Positions 8,198-33,654 of a stretch of DNA of 64,000 nt are shown one piece after another. The first letter of the stretch is position 1. Every line of letters starts with the position of its first letter. Source of the stretch: an uncultured Bacteroides sp. (lineage in GTDB: Bacteria; Bacteroidota; Bacteroidia; Chitinophagales; Chitinophagaceae); the NCBI GenBank assembly GCA_902168085.1, contig CABHOP010000089.1, forward strand, positions 1 to 64,000, given 5' to 3'. The notes beneath the pieces are model-generated. The model had not been told where the DNA came from. It did no database searches and was given only the letters and a program-made list of their open reading frames with translations. Both the position numbers and the translations under genes were made by a program.

Positions 8198-9663
8198 TGC
8201 CACTGTTGAAGAACATATTATCTGCTATTGAACCGCTGAAAGTGGTGGGAAGTGATAATGTAGAAGTGTCTGCATTATTCATCGACTCGCGCAAAGTATC
8301 TGCAGGTAGCATGTTCATTGCCATCAGCGGAACAGCTATAGATGGCCATGCGTTTATAGATAAGGCTATTGCTTCAGGTGCAACTGTTATCGTATGTGAG
8401 CAACTGCCGGAGGAACAACTGCCTGGTGTAACATATGTGCAGGTAAAAAGCAGTAATAAGGCAGCAGGTTTTCTGGCAGCTGCTTTCTATGGTAATCCTT
8501 CGTCTAAAATGAAGGTAGTAGGTGTGACGGGTACAAACGGTAAGACTACAACCACAACACTTTTATTTAATCTATTTAAAGGGCTGGGATATAAATGCGG
8601 ATTGATATCTACTGTACAGAATCGTATAGATGACGTGATAGAGGTATCAACCCATACTACGCCGGATGCTATCAGTGTGCAAACATTGCTGACACGTATG
8701 CAGGCTGCAGGTTGCTCACATGTATTTATGGAAGTAAGCTCGCACGCTATACACCAGCACCGTATAGCAGGTATTGAGTTTGCAGGTGCGGCATTTACGA
8801 ATATTACACACGACCACCTGGATTATCATAAAAATTTTGACGAATACATCAGGGTTAAAAAGCAGTTGTTTGATGAATTACCGGCCGGTTCATTTGCACT
8901 TACAAATGCAGATGATAAACGCGGTATGGTAATGCTGCAAAACACGAAGGCTGAAAAATATACTTACAGCCTGCGTATGCCTGCCAACTTTAAAGGTAAG
9001 GTGCTGGAAAACAACCTGACCGGCCTGGTCATGCATATAGATAATCACGAGGCTTATTTCAGGATGATAGGCACTTTCAATGCTTATAACCTGCTGGCGG
9101 TATATGGTATAGCTACACTGATGGGGGAAGATAAGATGCAGGTATTGGCCACGCTAAGCAACCTGCATGGTGCAGCGGGCAGGTTTGAAACCTTCATGTC
9201 GGAAAATGATAAGGTGCTGGGTATAGTAGACTATGCGCATACACCTGATGCATTGATAAATGTGCTAGCTACTATCAATCAACTGCGTACCGGTGGCCAA
9301 CAATTGATAACCGTAATAGGCTGCGGTGGTGATAGGGATAGAGCCAAGCGCCCGATAATGGCAGAAGTGGCTTGCGAGCATAGCGACAAAGCCATATTGA
9401 CAGCGGATAATCCACGTAGTGAAGACCCGGAAGTGATATTGAATGAAATGGAATCAGGTCTTACTATGTCGCACAAAAGAAAAGTGTTGCGTATTACAGA
9501 TAGGAAAGAAGCTATCAAAACAGCTTGCGCATTGGCCCAGCCGAACGATATAGTACTAATAGCCGGTAAGGGACATGAAACCTACCAGGAGATAAAAGGA
9601 GTAAAGTACCCGTTTGACGACCGTGAAATATTAGTGGAAGCTTTTAAAACATTAAATAAATAG
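8197..9663 (+). CDS. murE: UDP-MurNAc-tripeptide synthetase MurE (meso-DAP adding)
   Basis: This is a 488-residue cytoplasmic Mur ligase that adds the third amino acid to UDP-MurNAc-L-Ala-D-Glu. The ATP-binding loop GVTGTNGKTTTT starts at 109, with Lys116 in the P-loop. The middle domain carries EVSSHAIHQHRI and THDHLDYH. In the C-terminal domain, DNPR at 404-407 is the signature of enzymes that use meso-diaminopimelate, as opposed to the DDNP/DNPA-type motifs of lysine enzymes. So the peptidoglycan is predicted to be of the DAP type. The start overlaps the ftsI stop. Confidence 0.96.
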   Translation: MPLLKNILSAIEPLKVVGSDNVEVSALFIDSRKVSAGSMFIAISGTAIDGHAFIDKAIASGATVIVCEQLPEEQLPGVTYVQVKSSNKAAGFLAAAFYGNPSSKMKVVGVTGTNGKTTTTTLLFNLFKGLGYKCGLISTVQNRIDDVIEVSTHTTPDAISVQTLLTRMQAAGCSHVFMEVSSHAIHQHRIAGIEFAGAAFTNITHDHLDYHKNFDEYIRVKKQLFDELPAGSFALTNADDKRGMVMLQNTKAEKYTYSLRMPANFKGKVLENNLTGLVMHIDNHEAYFRMIGTFNAYNLLAVYGIATLMGEDKMQVLATLSNLHGAAGRFETFMSENDKVLGIVDYAHTPDALINVLATINQLRTGGQQLITVIGCGGDRDRAKRPIMAEVACEHSDKAILTADNPRSEDPEVILNEMESGLTMSHKRKVLRITDRKEAIKTACALAQPNDIVLIAGKGHETYQEIKGVKYPFDDREILVEAFKTLNK

Positions 9664-21239: not shown

Positions 21240-21824
21240 ATGCAAATAATCCAACAACGTTCTGACTCAGAGCTGATACACGCCTTTATACAGGGCGATG
21301 AAAGAGCGCTTGAAACCCTGGTATACCGCTATAAAGACAAGCTGTATACATCCATCTATATGCTGGTGAAAGACAAGTATATAGCAGAAGACATCTTCCA
21401 GGATGCCTTCCTTAAAATGATACGTACCATGCGCGATGGGCGCTATTCGGAGCAAGGCAAGTTTTTACCATGGGCCATACGTGTAGCGCACAACCTATGT
21501 ATGGATCATTTTCGTAAAGTGAAGCAGCAGGTGCAGGTGTTATTGCCAGATGGTAAGGATATTTCTGACCTGATAGGTACTTCCGACTACAATGCGTCGG
21601 ACAGGATAGAAACCCGCCAGACAAATGAAAGCGTGCGGCAACTGATAGAAGCACTGCCAGAAGAGCAACGTGAAGTGATCGTGCTGCGCATGTATGGCGA
21701 CCTTAGCTTTAAAGAAATAGCAGATATGACTTCGGTAAGCATTAATACGGCATTAGGCCGCATGCGCTACGGACTCATAAATTTGCGCAAAATGATACAG
21801 GACAGGCAGATGGTTTTGCGTTAA
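21240..21824 (+). CDS. ECF-type RNA polymerase sigma factor
   Basis: This is a 194-residue sigma-70 family protein. Sigma region 2 (about 10-80) has LETLVYRYKDKLYTSIYMLV and EDIFQDAFLKMIRTM for core and -10 binding. Region 4 (about 125-185) has LPEEQREVIVLRMYGDLSFK and the helix-turn-helix EIADMTSVSINTALGRMRYG. No anti-sigma gene is adjacent, since the next gene is rsmE after 28 bases. Close homologues with the SINTALGRMRY motif are widespread in Bacteroidota and seem to act without a linked anti-sigma factor. The target genes are unknown. Confidence 0.9.
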   Translation: MQIIQQRSDSELIHAFIQGDERALETLVYRYKDKLYTSIYMLVKDKYIAEDIFQDAFLKMIRTMRDGRYSEQGKFLPWAIRVAHNLCMDHFRKVKQQVQVLLPDGKDISDLIGTSDYNASDRIETRQTNESVRQLIEALPEEQREVIVLRMYGDLSFKEIADMTSVSINTALGRMRYGLINLRKMIQDRQMVLR

Positions 21825-26835: not shown

Positions 26836-28947
26836 TTAGTGCGCTACAACTAGTCTTGTTCTTGTTACTACTGAACCTGCTTCTATCTGAACGAAGTAGA
26901 TACCGCTAGGTACAGTTGATGTATTCAAAACAACATTTTGCTCGCCTGCCCTGAATTGGTTAACTATAGCAGGAACCACAGTCTTGCCGTTCAGGTCTAT
27001 CAGGTTGATGATCACTTTTTCTTCTTTCTTCAGTGTTAAAGAAACAGTGGTAGCATCACCTGTCGGGTTAGGGTATAGTTTCACGAAAGATGAACCATCT
27101 ACAGCATTAATGCCAACTGCGTTCAGGGCAACGCCTTGGACTGCAAAATCATAGCTGCCTTCATTGAAATCGTTGTTGCTTACGTTTACTGTAGCTGTAC
27201 GTAGGCCTACTGCTGTAGGTGCAAACTGCACAGTGATGGTTTGAGCTTTTCCTGAATCAATAGTGAGTGGGAATGTTGGAGGTGTTACTAATGTAAACTC
27301 ACCTGCGTTTGCGCCACCAATGTTGATACCTTTAACAGTCAGTTTACCGGGACCTGCATTCTGAATGCTGAAAGTTTTTGTAGTTGTAGTATTTACCGGA
27401 ATGTTACCAAAGTCTGTGTTGTCACCTGTAGATGGTGTATTGTCGCCTTTGTTGATAGTATTATTGTTGCCGCTGATACTTACTTCAGGATTAGCTTTAT
27501 AGCTATCAGGGTTGAACAATGCAAATATTTGGCCGTTCTCAACTACTTCGCCGGATATTGAAGTAACACCGTTAGTAGTGTGCGCCTGGTCAACACCGAT
27601 GAACATACCGGGGCCCAGTATCTCTTGTGCATCGATGATACCTGAAGCCTCTTCATCTTGTGTCAGGAAGTTAGCACCGCCGGTTACGAAGCGTGTAGCA
27701 TCGTGAGAAGCAATTTCTACAAGCGCATCAGTAGCTATAGTATACTGCCATGTTCTGCCCAGACGGGCGTTGTTACCTACGTCCTCTTGTATAAGGATGT
27801 GACCCCAGTTGTCGATAGTCATGTTATCCATCATCTCAGCACCTTCGGTACCTTCCAGCAATACGGTAGCTGTACCACCTGCTGCAGGGTTGCTGATGTC
27901 ATTAAATCGTAACCTCCACAGACGGCTTTTGCCACCTGAAGCAGTAACAGTGTTGGTAGTTAGTATATAGAAATCTGATGGGTTCTGAGGGTCCCATGCA
28001 CCATCTTCAGGGCGCAGGAAGCCTGTAACACCCAGGTTGTTGCTGTTTGTGTTCAGTGTAGCACCTGTAGCATTATAAACGGTACCCATATCGATACATG
28101 TAAATGCTGTACCAGGAGCAGGTATACCGGCAGTTGTTTCCATTGCCAGGCCTGTTATAGCTATGCCATACAGTTTACCACCTGTCAACCCCGCTTTCTC
28201 TATGTCCAAGCCGGTATTTTTCTTAGTACCTACATACAGATAAACCTGGCCGGTAGGAGAAGCATCATCCATACCCATGACGATAGTAGTATCGCTGGGT
28301 CTTGGGTTAGCTACAGAGTTTTCCCATGAGAATTTACCCAGGTAAGGCAGTTCATATGTATTGCCTGCTGTAGCACCGCTAATAACGTGTGCGAAAGCGC
28401 GGCCTTCGCTACCTGTTTCTTCACCATTCATCATGATGCGGGCTTGGGTACCTTTACCTGTTGCAGCATTATAATAAGCAGTAGGTGCAGCCAGGTCGCC
28501 AGAACAGAAACGGCCCATGCCTTTTGTCATTGGGGTGGCTACAGAGTATGCTACATAAGAAGAAGTGGCAACATCCCAAAGGTGAACGCGTTGTGTAAGA
28601 TCTCCGCCGCTGATAACGCGTAAGTCAGATTTGTTGATGATCCATTTAGAAACGAATGCACCTTTTGAACCATGTGCCCTTACAACGCCTGATGCATCGC
28701 CTATTTCGTGGTTCAGAACGAATGTGAACGTGCCATCACCATTGTCGAAAGCGCCGGAACCATCCGGTAAGCCTACCATCCGGTAACCATTTATCACATC
28801 GCCTACGGATAGTATAGAAGTTATCTTAACATCAGGCAGTGAGTTGGTTAAAAATGGGGTTTGCGATGAACTGGGCCCGGTAGCGAGCTGCGCATTGGCC
28901 ATAGCTGCCAGCGCCAGGCAGCCACCTGTGAGTAATCCTTTTTTCAT
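26836..28947 (-). CDS. PhoX/DUF839-like exported protein with type IX sorting domain
   Basis: This is a 703-residue protein. It has a signal peptide (1-19, ending AMANA-Q). A DUF839/PhoX-like beta-propeller part (about 30-460) has GSGAFDNGDGTFTFVLNHEI, EETGSEGRAFAHVISG and WDPQNPSDFYILTTNT. A choice-of-anchor-D/ASPM-type Ig-like domain (about 490-610) has FGNIPVNTTTTKTFSIQNAG. A C-terminal type IX secretion sorting domain (about 620-703) has VKLYPNPTGDATTV and SGIYFVQIEAG. It is predicted to be exported through the outer membrane and attached to the cell surface or released. PhoX enzymes are Ca/Fe phosphatases, but I cannot confirm their metal ligands here. The ATG at 28947 is chosen over the in-frame start 27 bases upstream because the signal peptide begins there. 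Confidence 0.88.
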   Translation of the reverse strand: MKKGLLTGGCLALAAMANAQLATGPSSSQTPFLTNSLPDVKITSILSVGDVINGYRMVGLPDGSGAFDNGDGTFTFVLNHEIGDASGVVRAHGSKGAFVSKWIINKSDLRVISGGDLTQRVHLWDVATSSYVAYSVATPMTKGMGRFCSGDLAAPTAYYNAATGKGTQARIMMNGEETGSEGRAFAHVISGATAGNTYELPYLGKFSWENSVANPRPSDTTIVMGMDDASPTGQVYLYVGTKKNTGLDIEKAGLTGGKLYGIAITGLAMETTAGIPAPGTAFTCIDMGTVYNATGATLNTNSNNLGVTGFLRPEDGAWDPQNPSDFYILTTNTVTASGGKSRLWRLRFNDISNPAAGGTATVLLEGTEGAEMMDNMTIDNWGHILIQEDVGNNARLGRTWQYTIATDALVEIASHDATRFVTGGANFLTQDEEASGIIDAQEILGPGMFIGVDQAHTTNGVTSISGEVVENGQIFALFNPDSYKANPEVSISGNNNTINKGDNTPSTGDNTDFGNIPVNTTTTKTFSIQNAGPGKLTVKGINIGGANAGEFTLVTPPTFPLTIDSGKAQTITVQFAPTAVGLRTATVNVSNNDFNEGSYDFAVQGVALNAVGINAVDGSSFVKLYPNPTGDATTVSLTLKKEEKVIINLIDLNGKTVVPAIVNQFRAGEQNVVLNTSTVPSGIYFVQIEAGSVVTRTRLVVAH

Positions 28948-29211
28948 ATATGTCAAAGTGGTTTGTACTCGCAAAAGTGGTCTTAGTGTGTTATGCCAAC
29001 ATGTCTGGCGTGTTAACTAAAGGTGAATTAAATGTTATAGGGTATTCGGATGCAAAACATGTTATGAAAAAATAAATTCAAATGTTTCCTGTTGTGGTAC
29101 TAACATTTATTGTGTTATTTACGTCAAAGAGAGAAAACCTACGCTATTTGAATATTTCTACATGTTATTTTGACTGATCACCATAACATACAAGGTCAGC
29201 ATGATAAGCCT

Positions 29212-29751
29212 ATGCCAATCGGGGATTCCCTTCCCCGGCTAATAAACCATTGCCTGAAGGGTAGCAGGACCGCCCAGAAACAACTTTATGATGCCTATGC
29301 TCCATTTTTATACGGAGTGGTAAGAAGATATCTATACAATCAGCAGTTCGCTGGAGAAGTATTGAATGATGCTTTTTATAAAATACTGACCAGGCTTGAC
29401 CAGTATTCTTTTAAAGGATCGTTTGAAGGCTGGATGCGCAGGATAGTGCTGAATGTGATAACAGACCATATAAGACAAAATGTGAAACACGAAGTGATTG
29501 TGGCAAATAGTGTGGAAGATTACAATCCGCTTATTGAAGATTCAGGGCTCAACAAACTGTCTTACAAAGAGTTGTTGGCATTAATACACGCATTGCCGGA
29601 TACCCAGCGGGCTGTTTTCAACTTATATGTGTTTGAAGATTTCTCGCACAAGGAAATAGCAGAGCATATTGGAATAACAGAAATAAACAGCAGATGGCAC
29701 TTGAATGATGCCAGAAGAAGACTAAAAGAAAAGATAACAAGAAATATGTAG
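29212..29751 (+). CDS. ECF sigma factor paired with an envelope-spanning anti-sigma candidate
   Basis: This is a 179-residue sigma-70 family protein. Region 2 (about 10-75) has AQKQLYDAYAPFLYGVVRRY, AGEVLNDAFYKILTRLDQY and SFEGWMRRIVLNVITDHIR. Region 4 (about 115-175) has LPDTQRAVFNLYVFEDFSHK and the helix-turn-helix EIAEHIGITEINSRWHLNDA. The ATG at 29212 fits the usual distance to region 2. A TTG start 42 bases upstream is possible but overlaps a promoter-like TTATTTTG (29165-29172). The gene is followed after 12 bases by the membrane protein at 29764, the normal place for its anti-sigma factor. Confidence 0.9.
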   Translation: MPIGDSLPRLINHCLKGSRTAQKQLYDAYAPFLYGVVRRYLYNQQFAGEVLNDAFYKILTRLDQYSFKGSFEGWMRRIVLNVITDHIRQNVKHEVIVANSVEDYNPLIEDSGLNKLSYKELLALIHALPDTQRAVFNLYVFEDFSHKEIAEHIGITEINSRWHLNDARRRLKEKITRNM

Positions 29752-29763
29752 TAACAAACATTA

Positions 29764-32085
29764 ATGGAAGAAAGCAGGAAAAATATTGACGAACTGTTTA
29801 AACAGGGTTTAGGTGACTATACCGAGCAGCCACCGGCTGAGGTATGGGCTGCCCTTGACAGTCGTTTAACAGATACACACACTCCGAAGCCATCATATAA
29901 ATGGCTGTGGTATCTTATTGCTGCTGTGGTAGTAGGTACGTTGCTATTTTATATAATTAAAAATGCTGCTTCTGAAAAGGCTACGAAACACGCAAGGGTG
30001 GAAGATGTAGTGCCACTTGCTGCTGGAAACGAGCCAGATAATAATGCCAATATTTTAAATCCTGGAGTGTCGGATACGGAAGCAACAGCAAACGGAGGAA
30101 ACAAAAATGCTCAGCCGGAAAAAGAAGAAACAAAAAGAAACAAAATAAACACAGGCAATATAGGAGCGGCTGAAGCAGGGATAGAAAAAGCCCCCGATAA
30201 TAAAGATAGGGATCAAGATAAGGATGCTCCACATACTGGCGGCAATATAGGTAGCACAAATGGTGAGCATGCAAATACCGGCACCAGAGCTGTTAACAGT
30301 AAAAAGCCTGCAAATACAAGTAAGGCGACGGGAACGAGTAGTAACGGTAATGCAACCAAAAGCAGAAATAAAGATGTAAATAAGAAGGACAGGGTTGACG
30401 GCGGCGGCACCGGTAATAGCAATAATGCTAAAGGAACTACATCGGCAAGTACCAATAGAAGCGGACAAGCTGAAAAGAAGAAAAATGTAGATAGCAAACG
30501 GGAAAGCGGCAATAGCAAAACTACCGATAGCAGAACAGCAAATAATACCCAAAGCAAAACACCTCAAAAATCCAGTAAACAGCTGGGGGGTGAAATACGA
30601 AATACGGATAATACACCGGAAACGTCTGCTACAAATAGCAAGCCTGGAAAGTTGGGGTCAAACAATCAGCAAAGAAAACAACAGAGTGCTAACGATACTA
30701 ACAAAGGGTATGGAAATAATGCGAGCAATACTGCAAGTAATAATAGTGGTGTAAATACCCCGCAAGCTAAAACGAACAATAACAAGGGTACGGTGCAGAA
30801 TAAATCGGCAACAGGTGGTGAAACGAAGAAGGCGAATTCAAGAACAAGTGCTGGAAAGGGCAGCAATGATACAGACAAGTCATCAACAGCCAAAAATAAA
30901 AACAAGAAGGCTGGAAATGATAGAACCCAACCGGAGCGCCGCAAAGAAGAAACCTCTGATAACAGTACAGCTAAAAATGAAAATACTACGGATAGCCAAA
31001 CAGGTAGTGCTGATAGTTCCGTTCCCAGGAATAATACCGGTAGTGGAGGTGGTAGCAAAGTGCCGAAGGAGATTGTAACACAGGAGAATAAAGACATAAA
31101 ATATGAGAGCGCTTTTGTAGCAGATAAAAACCGTGAAGGTGGGATAAAAGTGAGCGATTATATGGATACTGAAAATGACGGTGAACAAGGAAGTGATGTG
31201 GCCGGGGATATCGTGCAGAAAGAAGAAAAACCACAAGCTAAAGGTGGCGGTGGCGGTAGCACTTCGGCAGAAGAAGAAAAGAAAGAAAAACAAAACAGGA
31301 AAGGCAAATTTGATTTTGGAGCCAAGATGGGGTATGAAGCAGCCTTCGGCTCTTACAACGCCAATAAAATAGTAGTAACGCCGTATGTGCAGTACTCCAT
31401 TGCACGGAATATTTCCATACTACTGCAGCCTACAGTTAAATATGCAACAATCAACAAGACAGATATTGGTGATGCACAGGCCTATTACAGGAAAGGTGCT
31501 ACCCGGCTGGATTCCAACCACATATACATACCCAGTACAGATACATTTGTTGTGGACAGCGTAATACGCAGGTATTACCATTCGGGTACTTACGATTCCA
31601 TATCTGTAAAAAGCGCTATAGCACAAAAAAAGTATTGGGAAATTGAATTGCCTGTACTACTGCAGTATAAGTTAAGCAAACAGCTTAGTTTCTTTTTTGG
31701 AGGTTCTGTAAACTTTAGTAAAGTGGTGCAGATAAAAGATGAACTATTGGAAACAAATGGATTTACCTGGAGCGATAGTACCATTTACCCCGCTGCGCCC
31801 GATCCGAGTCCAAGGCCTGTAGTGCCAACAGGCGAGAGCAAAGTACAGTATAACGGTAAGCCGTTCAACGAATATACCGGCAACCTGTACCCCAATGCCA
31901 CAACAAATCCTGTTCGTGTCAATCTGATGTTTGGTGTGGATTATCATGTAACAGACCGCTTGTTCTTTGATTTGCTGCTGCAGCAAAATGTATCGAACCT
32001 GAACAATATACCTAACAAGAGTGTAAGGGATATCTACAAACAATCTTACATACGGGTAGGCATTGGTTACAGGTTTAGCAAATAA
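29764..32085 (+). CDS. Candidate dual-membrane-spanning anti-sigma factor: membrane anchor, long disordered linker, outer-membrane barrel
   Basis: This is a 773-residue protein with three parts. Residues 1-46 are cytoplasmic and resemble the helical N-terminus of Bacteroidota anti-sigma proteins (NIDELFKQGLGDYTEQPPAE, VWAALDSRL). Residues 47-66 form one transmembrane helix (WLWYLIAAVVVGTLLFYII). Residues 67-514 are a low-complexity stretch dominated by Asn, Lys, Thr, Ser and Gly with almost no aromatic residues. Residues 515-773 have the alternating pattern of an outer-membrane beta-barrel domain and end in YIRVGIGYRFSK, with an aromatic residue near the C-terminus as in barrel insertion signals. 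It lies 12 bases after an ECF sigma gene. I recall a family called Dma in Bacteroides with this architecture that spans both membranes and controls a sigma factor. Membership is an inference. Confidence 0.85.
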   Translation: MEESRKNIDELFKQGLGDYTEQPPAEVWAALDSRLTDTHTPKPSYKWLWYLIAAVVVGTLLFYIIKNAASEKATKHARVEDVVPLAAGNEPDNNANILNPGVSDTEATANGGNKNAQPEKEETKRNKINTGNIGAAEAGIEKAPDNKDRDQDKDAPHTGGNIGSTNGEHANTGTRAVNSKKPANTSKATGTSSNGNATKSRNKDVNKKDRVDGGGTGNSNNAKGTTSASTNRSGQAEKKKNVDSKRESGNSKTTDSRTANNTQSKTPQKSSKQLGGEIRNTDNTPETSATNSKPGKLGSNNQQRKQQSANDTNKGYGNNASNTASNNSGVNTPQAKTNNNKGTVQNKSATGGETKKANSRTSAGKGSNDTDKSSTAKNKNKKAGNDRTQPERRKEETSDNSTAKNENTTDSQTGSADSSVPRNNTGSGGGSKVPKEIVTQENKDIKYESAFVADKNREGGIKVSDYMDTENDGEQGSDVAGDIVQKEEKPQAKGGGGGSTSAEEEKKEKQNRKGKFDFGAKMGYEAAFGSYNANKIVVTPYVQYSIARNISILLQPTVKYATINKTDIGDAQAYYRKGATRLDSNHIYIPSTDTFVVDSVIRRYYHSGTYDSISVKSAIAQKKYWEIELPVLLQYKLSKQLSFFFGGSVNFSKVVQIKDELLETNGFTWSDSTIYPAAPDPSPRPVVPTGESKVQYNGKPFNEYTGNLYPNATTNPVRVNLMFGVDYHVTDRLFFDLLLQQNVSNLNNIPNKSVRDIYKQSYIRVGIGYRFSK

Positions 32086-32675: not shown

Positions 32676-33380
32676 CTAGCCCTCCAGGTGGATGGAGATA
32701 ACGATCATGCGCGTGTTTATCTGCTCTATCGCATTGCTTAAAGGAATACGGGAATCTTTATATTGCTGATTCATCAGCCCCTGGCTTAGCTTTATTTCGG
32801 GAGAGAAGATAAAGTTTGGGTAATAAAACTCGAAGCCTACCCCTATTTCATAACCGGCATCAAAAGGGCGCACTTTCAAAAATTCGTCTCTGCGGCGCGA
32901 ACGTGCATTTGCTGCCAGGTCAATATCAAACTTACCACCTGCCAAACCATAAAAGCGGAAATTGCCGATGCGGTCGCTTTTAAACTTCAACTGTAGGGGC
33001 ATGTGCATATATATAGACTCTATCGAACGGTTATAGATGCTATCTGTGCCTATTACGCTGCGTGTATTTACCTTCAGGCGTTTTTCTGCAAAAGCGAGCG
33101 ATGGTACAAAACGGAGATCTATAAACTTTGAAAGCCTGAGGTTACCCATCAAGCCAAGGTTAAACCCCGGGCCAAAGCGGCTCTCTATGATTTTAAAAGT
33201 ATCCTGTTCTGTGAAAGATTCGGTATAGCGCAGGCGGTAGGAAGAATAGTTGAGCCCGAAAGTAATGCCGAAATAATAGGCTTTGTCATCATGCTCTGCC
33301 ATGTTCAATACTTTACGTTGCGCGTGAGCATTAAAACATAGTATTGAAATTAATATGGTTATTATAAAGCGATTGAGCAT
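32676..33380 (-). CDS. porT: Type IX secretion / gliding outer-membrane protein PorT
   Basis: This is a 234-residue beta-barrel protein with a signal peptide (1-20, ending FNAHA-Q). Blocks typical of the PorT family are YYFGITFGLNYSSYRLRY (about 34-51), GPGFNLGLMGNLRLSKFIDL with RFVPSLAFAEKRL (about 68-100), and GYEIGVGFEFYYPNFIFSPE near the C-terminus. The protein ends in MIVISIHLEG. PorT is needed for type IX secretion of proteins with a C-terminal sorting domain, such as the PhoX-like protein at 26836. The ATG at 33380 is chosen because it begins the signal peptide; the frame is open 90 bases further upstream. A -7 element lies at 33452. Confidence 0.88.
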   Translation of the reverse strand: MLNRFIITILISILCFNAHAQRKVLNMAEHDDKAYYFGITFGLNYSSYRLRYTESFTEQDTFKIIESRFGPGFNLGLMGNLRLSKFIDLRFVPSLAFAEKRLKVNTRSVIGTDSIYNRSIESIYMHMPLQLKFKSDRIGNFRFYGLAGGKFDIDLAANARSRRRDEFLKVRPFDAGYEIGVGFEFYYPNFIFSPEIKLSQGLMNQQYKDSRIPLSNAIEQINTRMIVISIHLEG

Positions 33381-33451
33381 GCTATCCTTACTTAAAAAAC
33401 ATAACGCTGAATACGAAGATACAGTATGTATCCAGTTAAACAGCTGGGTAG

Positions 33452-33459
33452 CAAATGTA
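33452..33459 (-). promoter_or_regulatory. Promoter -7 element of porT
   Basis: The minus strand reads TACATTTG, a perfect TAnnTTTG, about 72 bases before the porT ATG. It also argues for the ATG at 33380, since the longer frame would start upstream of the transcript. Confidence 0.45.
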
Positions 33460-33654
33460 CATATAAACAAACTTTAACAATAGCAGTGCCATGAATGATT
33501 AAATTTAGCGTGGCTACATCTGCAGACTGGAAGAATGGGGGAAGATGTGATAGTAGTATACAGTATCAACGGAAGATGCAGAGAAGAAATTTTCGAAAGG
33601 GCTTAAAATTGTAAAACCCTTAGTTGAGACATATATGCCAATACGATCTGAACT

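Follow-up and report, generated by a model that had tools for sequence, protein, structure and literature searches.

A probable Dma-type anti-sigma gene and its ECF sigma gene in a Chitinophagaceae genome, with a promoter-like element that recurs before type IX secretion cargo genes

In RseA–sigmaE and FecR-type signalling, the sensor and the anti-sigma factor are separate proteins. The Dma (dual membrane-spanning anti-sigma) proteins of Bacteroides thetaiotaomicron, as presented in the report on the Dma/Das pairs, combine an anti-sigma domain, a transmembrane helix, a long disordered tether and a C-terminal barrel in one protein, and their genes adjoin genes for extracytoplasmic function (ECF) sigma factors (PMC13088901). 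In the Phocaeicola vulgatus M0N98_03760/03761 pair and the Bacteroides fragilis EcfO pair, a sigma gene is likewise reported to be followed by a large periplasm-spanning anti-sigma factor with a predicted barrel end (PMC9308784). In Porphyromonas gingivalis, the ECF sigma factor SigP is described as autoregulated and tied to type IX secretion, and the surface sorting-domain protein PorA is described as signalling to SigP via an unknown go-between (PMC7712824). The locus considered here is a sigma/anti-sigma pair of the Dma build in a 64,000-nucleotide stretch (the window; contig CABHOP010000089.1, positions 1 to 64,000, assembly GCA_902168085.1) from an uncultured Bacteroides sp. placed in the Chitinophagaceae. 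Most likely, this pair couples the expression of type IX secretion system (T9SS) cargo to the state of the outer membrane or of secretion. The architecture is already known from Dma. Within the searches made, three things are new: the promoter element, the connection with T9SS cargo and the occurrence of anti-sigma factors that carry a sorting domain. No publication on a T9SS link of such anti-sigma factors was found in the open-access literature.

The sigma/anti-sigma pair and its described counterparts

The sigma open reading frame (ORF) starts with TTG, and its product matches the Pfam families Sigma70_r2 (E 2.1e-12) and Sigma70_r4_2 (E 8.4e-13). Assignment to TIGR02985 was rejected (83 bits, below the cut-off of 126.4). 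The anti-sigma ORF of 773 codons follows the sigma stop after 12 bases, as the first-pass annotation of this DNA had given it, and what that annotation stated about the sequence itself holds throughout. That annotation had also proposed a single transmembrane helix after a short N-terminus, followed by about 450 residues rich in Asn, Lys, Thr, Ser and Gly. The best hydropathy segment of the protein is residues 47–65, the structure model has a helix there, and residues 67–510 consist of 13.5% N, 12.2% K, 11.0% G, 10.4% T and 10.1% S. Aromatic residues make up 4 of these 444 positions, and the entire protein contains no Cys. The composition suggests that the tether, about 449 residues long, is disordered, and its estimated contour length is far above the width of the periplasm, as had been expected.

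The C-terminal part, about 260 residues ending in GIGYRFSK, had been proposed as a barrel. The structure prediction for residues 515–773 is an 8-strand barrel, but sequence searches yield only sub-threshold barrel matches (PF13568 on the C-terminal part alone: E 8.8e-4, 19.8 bits, cut-off 27). The 773-residue protein taken as a whole has no Pfam match, and neither Pfam nor NCBIfam places a barrel or anti-sigma family above cut-off; the Pfam scan finds no FecR domain.

The sigma and anti-sigma genes are in the same frame, and a joined chain was modelled by reading TAG and TAA as Q, which links the two proteins via five residues. The alignment has 46 rows (8 joined, 21 sigma only and 17 start only). 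The predicted local distance difference test score (pLDDT) of the model is 87.6 and its predicted template modelling score is 0.78. In the anti-sigma part, helices are placed at residues 8–16 and 25–38 in addition to the transmembrane helix, with block pLDDT values of 81–97. The only two strand segments, sigma residues 121–123 (between the two sigma domains) and anti-sigma residues 5–7, presumably pair in the model. In a fold search, which informs on the sigma part only, residues 5–194 match SigW and sigmaE structures.

Anti-sigma matches at E <= 0.001 are present in 17 of 59 genomes, including its own, which has a single copy, and in 13 of the 15 genus genomes. In all 19 related loci examined, the gene immediately before the anti-sigma gene encodes a homologous sigma factor. 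Together, these counts indicate that the pairing is more than chance. The start motif HIDDLFREELGGYTE.P...VW..LE.RL recurs in related anti-sigma proteins, and W28 is nearly invariant among 73 related proteins (described below). Length varies among relatives from 425 to 950 residues for the protein and from 124 to 626 for the tether, where the barrel match in L046 is weak (E 0.023). Relative to the closest genome (sister genome, L031), residues 1–46 are without replacement. The ratio of nonsynonymous to synonymous substitution rates (dN/dS) is 0.074 for the sigma gene, 0.084 for the barrel and 0.44 for the tether, which also has six gapped codons. Selection on both ends with drift in the middle is as expected of a tether. 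The exception to this drift is an island at residues 443–472, to which similar stretches are seen by eye in L032, L033 and L034. In the window, a poly-Gly and Lys/Glu-rich stretch lies between this island and the barrel. In other members of the genus, that place is taken by another conserved island, DEMPLPLAGAPK...DISQYEPLITR.

The first-pass annotation had taken the protein for a Dma homologue. This holds for the start domain, which is homologous to that of eight Bacteroidales proteins of the same build from Parabacteroides, Tannerellaceae, Dysgonomonas and others (profile–profile probability 98.6%, E 5.2e-16); the comparison was made with these gut proteins rather than with Dma1–3 themselves. 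It does not extend to the barrel, which is alike in predicted fold only and not detectably homologous by profile (13%). The window sigma falls in a separate, fully supported clade. The tether here is about 449 residues long, whereas the gut examples compared are 397–435 residues in all. An adjacent sigma factor of the ECF21 group is a feature of the Dma family; the adjacent sigma here is known at the ECF level. The published Dma output is vesicles, NigD and polysaccharide utilization loci, and the predicted regulon here is T9SS cargo. The literature links NigD to Dma1, and the genome of the window has no match to NigD. The P. vulgatus and EcfO pairs, likened here by description and not by sequence, differ in a regulon that includes O-antigen and NigD genes. 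The PorY–PorX–SigP system shares an autoregulated ECF sigma factor linked to type IX secretion, but SigP is under a two-component system and drives genes of the T9SS machine, whereas the predicted targets here are cargo. PorXY–SigP also has no adjacent anti-sigma gene, and here such a gene is present and conserved. As in RseA–sigmaE and FecR-type systems, a membrane anti-sigma factor would pass signals from the envelope on to an ECF sigma factor. Unlike the FecR type, which has a FecR domain and a separate TonB-dependent receptor, the predicted barrel and the anti-sigma domain are in one ORF.

A promoter-like element before sigma genes and T9SS cargo genes

In upstream stretches aligned by eye, the sigma genes are preceded by CTAAC[AG]TT-N14-CGTC. 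Its AAC and CGT have the usual shape of an ECF promoter. Thirteen genus genomes bear the pair; 12 of them have the element upstream of the sigma gene, and the thirteenth is cut by a contig end. All six testable near relatives also have it before the sigma gene, five exactly and one with one base off. The two genus genomes that do not contain the anti-sigma gene have zero sites.

Across the 15 genus genomes, the pattern YTAACRTT-N14-CGTC has 44 sites. Thirty-seven have CTAAC, from which the 7 TTAAC sites are excluded (one, checked, is inside an ORF). The 37 sites divide into 12 before the sigma gene and 25 elsewhere. Genes were scored within 150 nt of genus sites and within 200 nt of sites outside the genus. 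Seventeen of the 25 other sites precede, by 13–80 nt, a gene that encodes a T9SS type-A sorting domain above cut-off. The encoded proteins are of several unlike types, including PKD-bearing, DUF11-repeat, GEVED-like and VIT-like proteins and others. The expected share of genes with a sorting domain is approximately 4% (125 places in the genome of the window, with gene number estimated). The binomial odds of 17 in 25 are about 1e-18, a figure to be taken only as a guide, since related genomes share sites. The remaining eight sites are just after the anti-sigma gene (three; G010, G014 and G005), in ORFs (two), at a contig end (one), before a 163-residue membrane protein (one) or before nothing (one).

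Outside the genus, the placement recurs. In G019, which belongs to another genus, all 4 sites are 36–132 nt before T9SS sorting-domain genes. Five genomes reached via named loci contain 20 sites, of which 4 are before sigma genes. Among the 16 others, 8 are 19–196 nt before T9SS sorting-domain genes. The rest fall inside ORFs (2), are truncated at contig ends (2) or precede other things (4). In the genome of the window, the exact site other than the sigma gene's own precedes the gene for a 301-residue sorting-domain protein (C78). With one mismatch allowed, there are 15 more sites, 10 in ORFs and 5 intergenic. One intergenic site precedes C43, a 600-residue PKD-type T9SS sorting-domain protein, one precedes C91, a membrane protein described below, and the other three precede an oxidoreductase-like ORF, a 266-residue ORF and nothing.

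Some sites have other surroundings. In L043, L237 and L249, the element is followed by a gene for a T9SS sorting-domain protein of 292–299 residues, two of the three with choice-of-anchor J above cut-off; in L043 and L249 this element is divergent from the sigma gene. At G000:C91:3038 in the genome of the window (L215 3038–3559, one mismatch) and in G008 (L177 4670–5158, exact), the gene for a 157–163-residue protein begins 25–27 nt behind the element. This protein has an N-terminal membrane helix and no family match, and the G008 version is, by eye, a likely homologue of the 157-residue C91 protein. This membrane protein is a possible non-cargo member of the regulon. In L033 (near 8349–8440), L032 (minus strand, site 7923) and L034 (minus strand, site 8793), an element of the same type follows closely on the anti-sigma stop and is not followed by a coding gene. 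Terminator-like hairpins follow approximately 60–90 nt beyond it in L033 and L034 and are not called in L032. An element and terminator-like hairpins in this position make a small RNA possible.

Proposed mechanism and alternative explanations

The best explanation of these results, at a probability of about 0.68, is an autoregulated ECF sigma factor with an envelope-spanning, Dma-type anti-sigma factor that drives T9SS cargo promoters. Residues 1–46 would hold the sigma factor at the inner membrane, the disordered tether would cross the periplasm and the 8-strand barrel would be inserted in the outer membrane. A change there would alter or cut the tethered protein and free the sigma factor, which would then read the element at its own promoter and at genes for surface or secreted T9SS proteins. 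Candidate triggers are barrel assembly, an occupied surface hairpin and the T9SS load or state. In RseA, regulated proteolysis frees the sigma factor, and release here is assumed by analogy to occur in the same way. With a contour length far above the width of the periplasm, pull is an unlikely signal for an unbound tether. The sigma factor would be freed more simply if the tether were cut or the barrel failed to insert. Given that the predicted outputs are T9SS cargo and that sister anti-sigma factors carry a sorting domain, export state would be a natural signal. The analysis supports the interpretation of the first-pass annotation, in which outer-membrane state is reported straight to a sigma factor. 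If true, a single chain from the outer membrane to the sigma factor would close in one step a gap of the PorA-to-SigP type. It would bear on how Bacteroidota keep the production of T9SS cargo in step with export. It would also connect Dma-type proteins, which are known from gut Bacteroides for their role in vesiculation, with type IX secretion elsewhere in the Bacteroidota.

Several results weigh against this explanation. A T9SS cargo gene downstream is not seen for 8 of the 25 genus sites and 8 of the 16 outside sites, genomes of one genus are not independent, and the genome of the window has only 2 exact sites, one of which is the sigma gene's own. The reversed pattern, run as a control, is commoner than the pattern itself in the 15 genus genomes (73 vs 44), in the genome of the window with one mismatch allowed (57 vs 17) and in the scan covering G019 (10 vs 6). 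The sigma/anti-sigma contact was modelled as a joined chain, which eases contact beyond what occurs in life. Foldseek TM-scores for the barrel are low (0.37/0.54 for OmpA, 1bxw). The tether could also be cut in the cell, which would leave the two ends unjoined. As to the reversed pattern, spacings of N9 or N10 in the 15 genus genomes yield 5 sites, all inside ORFs, against 58 reversed. The reversed string is thus common whatever the spacing, and relative to it the N14 pattern is approximately seven times richer (44/73 vs 5/58). In the five genomes outside the genus, the pattern has 20 sites and its reverse 6.

A general outer-membrane stress sensor, with T9SS cargo as a surface-remodelling output and no sensing of secretion, is a serious alternative at somewhat less than even odds. 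The P. vulgatus pair is reported to be induced by toxin and envelope stress and to lengthen O-antigen (PMC9308784), and Bacteroides Dma proteins are reported to change vesicle output (PMC13088901). In contrast, the sites found here are mostly before T9SS cargo genes and not before chaperone, protease or lipopolysaccharide genes, and sister anti-sigma factors carry a T9SS sorting domain; both observations are silent on what is sensed. That a different sigma factor or regulator recognizes the element, with the pair in control of something else, is improbable. The genome does contain other ECF genes, such as that at 21240–21824 of the window (29% identical), but the element precedes the sigma gene itself in nearly all pair-bearing genus genomes (12 of 13) and in the testable near relatives (6 of 6), and the two genus genomes that do not carry the pair lack it. 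An ordinary membrane anti-sigma factor that does not span the envelope, its tether cut or its barrel uninserted and vestigial, is equally improbable. Purifying selection on the barrel is strong, and the genus as a whole conserves it, although several related sigma loci encode short barrel-less downstream proteins of 122–132 residues (L103 and L105) and 255–282 residues (Roseivirga and Hymenobacter).

Related sigma loci and neighbouring genes

A sigma profile scan of 84,980 species genomes identifies at least 590 candidate loci, of which the best 80, distributed across the Bacteroidota, were compared. Three have no downstream ORF or run off, which leaves 77; removal of 4 truncated or X-bearing sequences leaves 73 proteins. 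The genus start-domain profile matches 49 of the 77 downstream ORFs at E < 0.01 (shuffled, 0 of 77), and the genus barrel profile matches 15 of 77 (shuffled, 0). Among the 73 proteins, PF13568 is found in 30 and PF13505 in 20, with overlaps counted in both. In the sigma tree, the window sigma is in a fully supported clade of 8. A single type of start domain and a single sigma lineage are thus combined with different outer parts: the start domain matches those of the Bacteroidales proteins, the barrel does not, and two Pfam barrel families are represented.

The CHU_C T9SS sorting domain is found at E <= 0.01 in 9 of the 73 sigma-adjacent proteins, and single scans of 8 of these are all above cut-off. 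The anti-sigma proteins of L068, L076, L078, L090, L093, L096, L102 and L111 have a C-terminal CHU_C T9SS type-B sorting domain. In these versions, the start domain is followed by a transmembrane helix, then by a stretch that is acidic or polar, and last by a sorting domain with an end such as LFELRR or LTIKR. Each would be an inner-membrane protein that bears the secretion signal of an outer-membrane machine. The heads with this C-terminal domain (CTD) need 3 changes on the sigma tree, as labelled by regular expression; these labels also yield 9 CTD proteins, in a different set (L090 is missed, and L066 and L081 are added).

A broader proposal, tentative and rather doubtful, is an anti-sigma family that reads T9SS state itself, with a barrel-on-tether branch, a branch with type-B sorting domains (Crocinitomicaceae and kin) and some members that also make a small RNA. 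In the sorting-domain branch, the T9SS would tug on or process a bait anchored in the inner membrane and so free the sigma factor. In the branch of the window, the freed sigma factor would turn on cargo, and cargo supply would follow export capacity. In some members, a small RNA would be made from the sigma-type promoter just after the anti-sigma gene.

Table 1. Features of the sigma/anti-sigma locus and adjoining genes (window coordinates)
Feature	Position	Strand	Basis
Promoter-like element CTAACATTT-N13-CGTC, 44 nt upstream of sigma start	29100..29125	+	Upstream alignment, genome scans
ECF sigma factor, 193 aa	29170..29751	+	ORF list, Pfam/NCBIfam, tree
Putative Dma-type anti-sigma factor, 773 aa	29764..32085	+	ORF, homologues, hydropathy, profile matches
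Predicted cytoplasmic sigma-binding motif, residues 1–46, nearly invariant W28	29764..29901	+	Profiles, model; dN 0 vs sister genome
Transmembrane helix (predicted), residues 47–66	29902..29961	+	Hydropathy, model
Low-complexity tether, fast evolving, residues 67–514	29962..31305	+	Composition, dN/dS 0.44
Conserved island in tether, residues 443–472 (KDIKYESAFVADKNREGGIKVSDYMDTEND)	31090..31179	+	By eye
Predicted outer-membrane beta-barrel with long extra hairpins, residues 515–773	31306..32082	+	Structure model, profile
porT/sprT, T9SS component, convergent neighbour (outside operon)	32676..33470	-	NF052311, 207.2 bits vs cut-off 125
Divergent gene, product with T9SS type-A sorting domain (context)	26836..28974	-	TIGR04183, 47.2 bits

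The porT and anti-sigma genes are neighbours in the window, in L031 (the sister genome) and in G019 (L043). It is not found in the other loci (L032–L129) within the stretches examined and was not counted as a conserved operon partner. The second ECF sigma gene of the window is kept in the sister genome (L031 1094–1678). A second sigma/anti-sigma pair, with a short tether of 124–132 residues, is present in the genus genomes G009, G002 and G006 (L047, L048 and L049).
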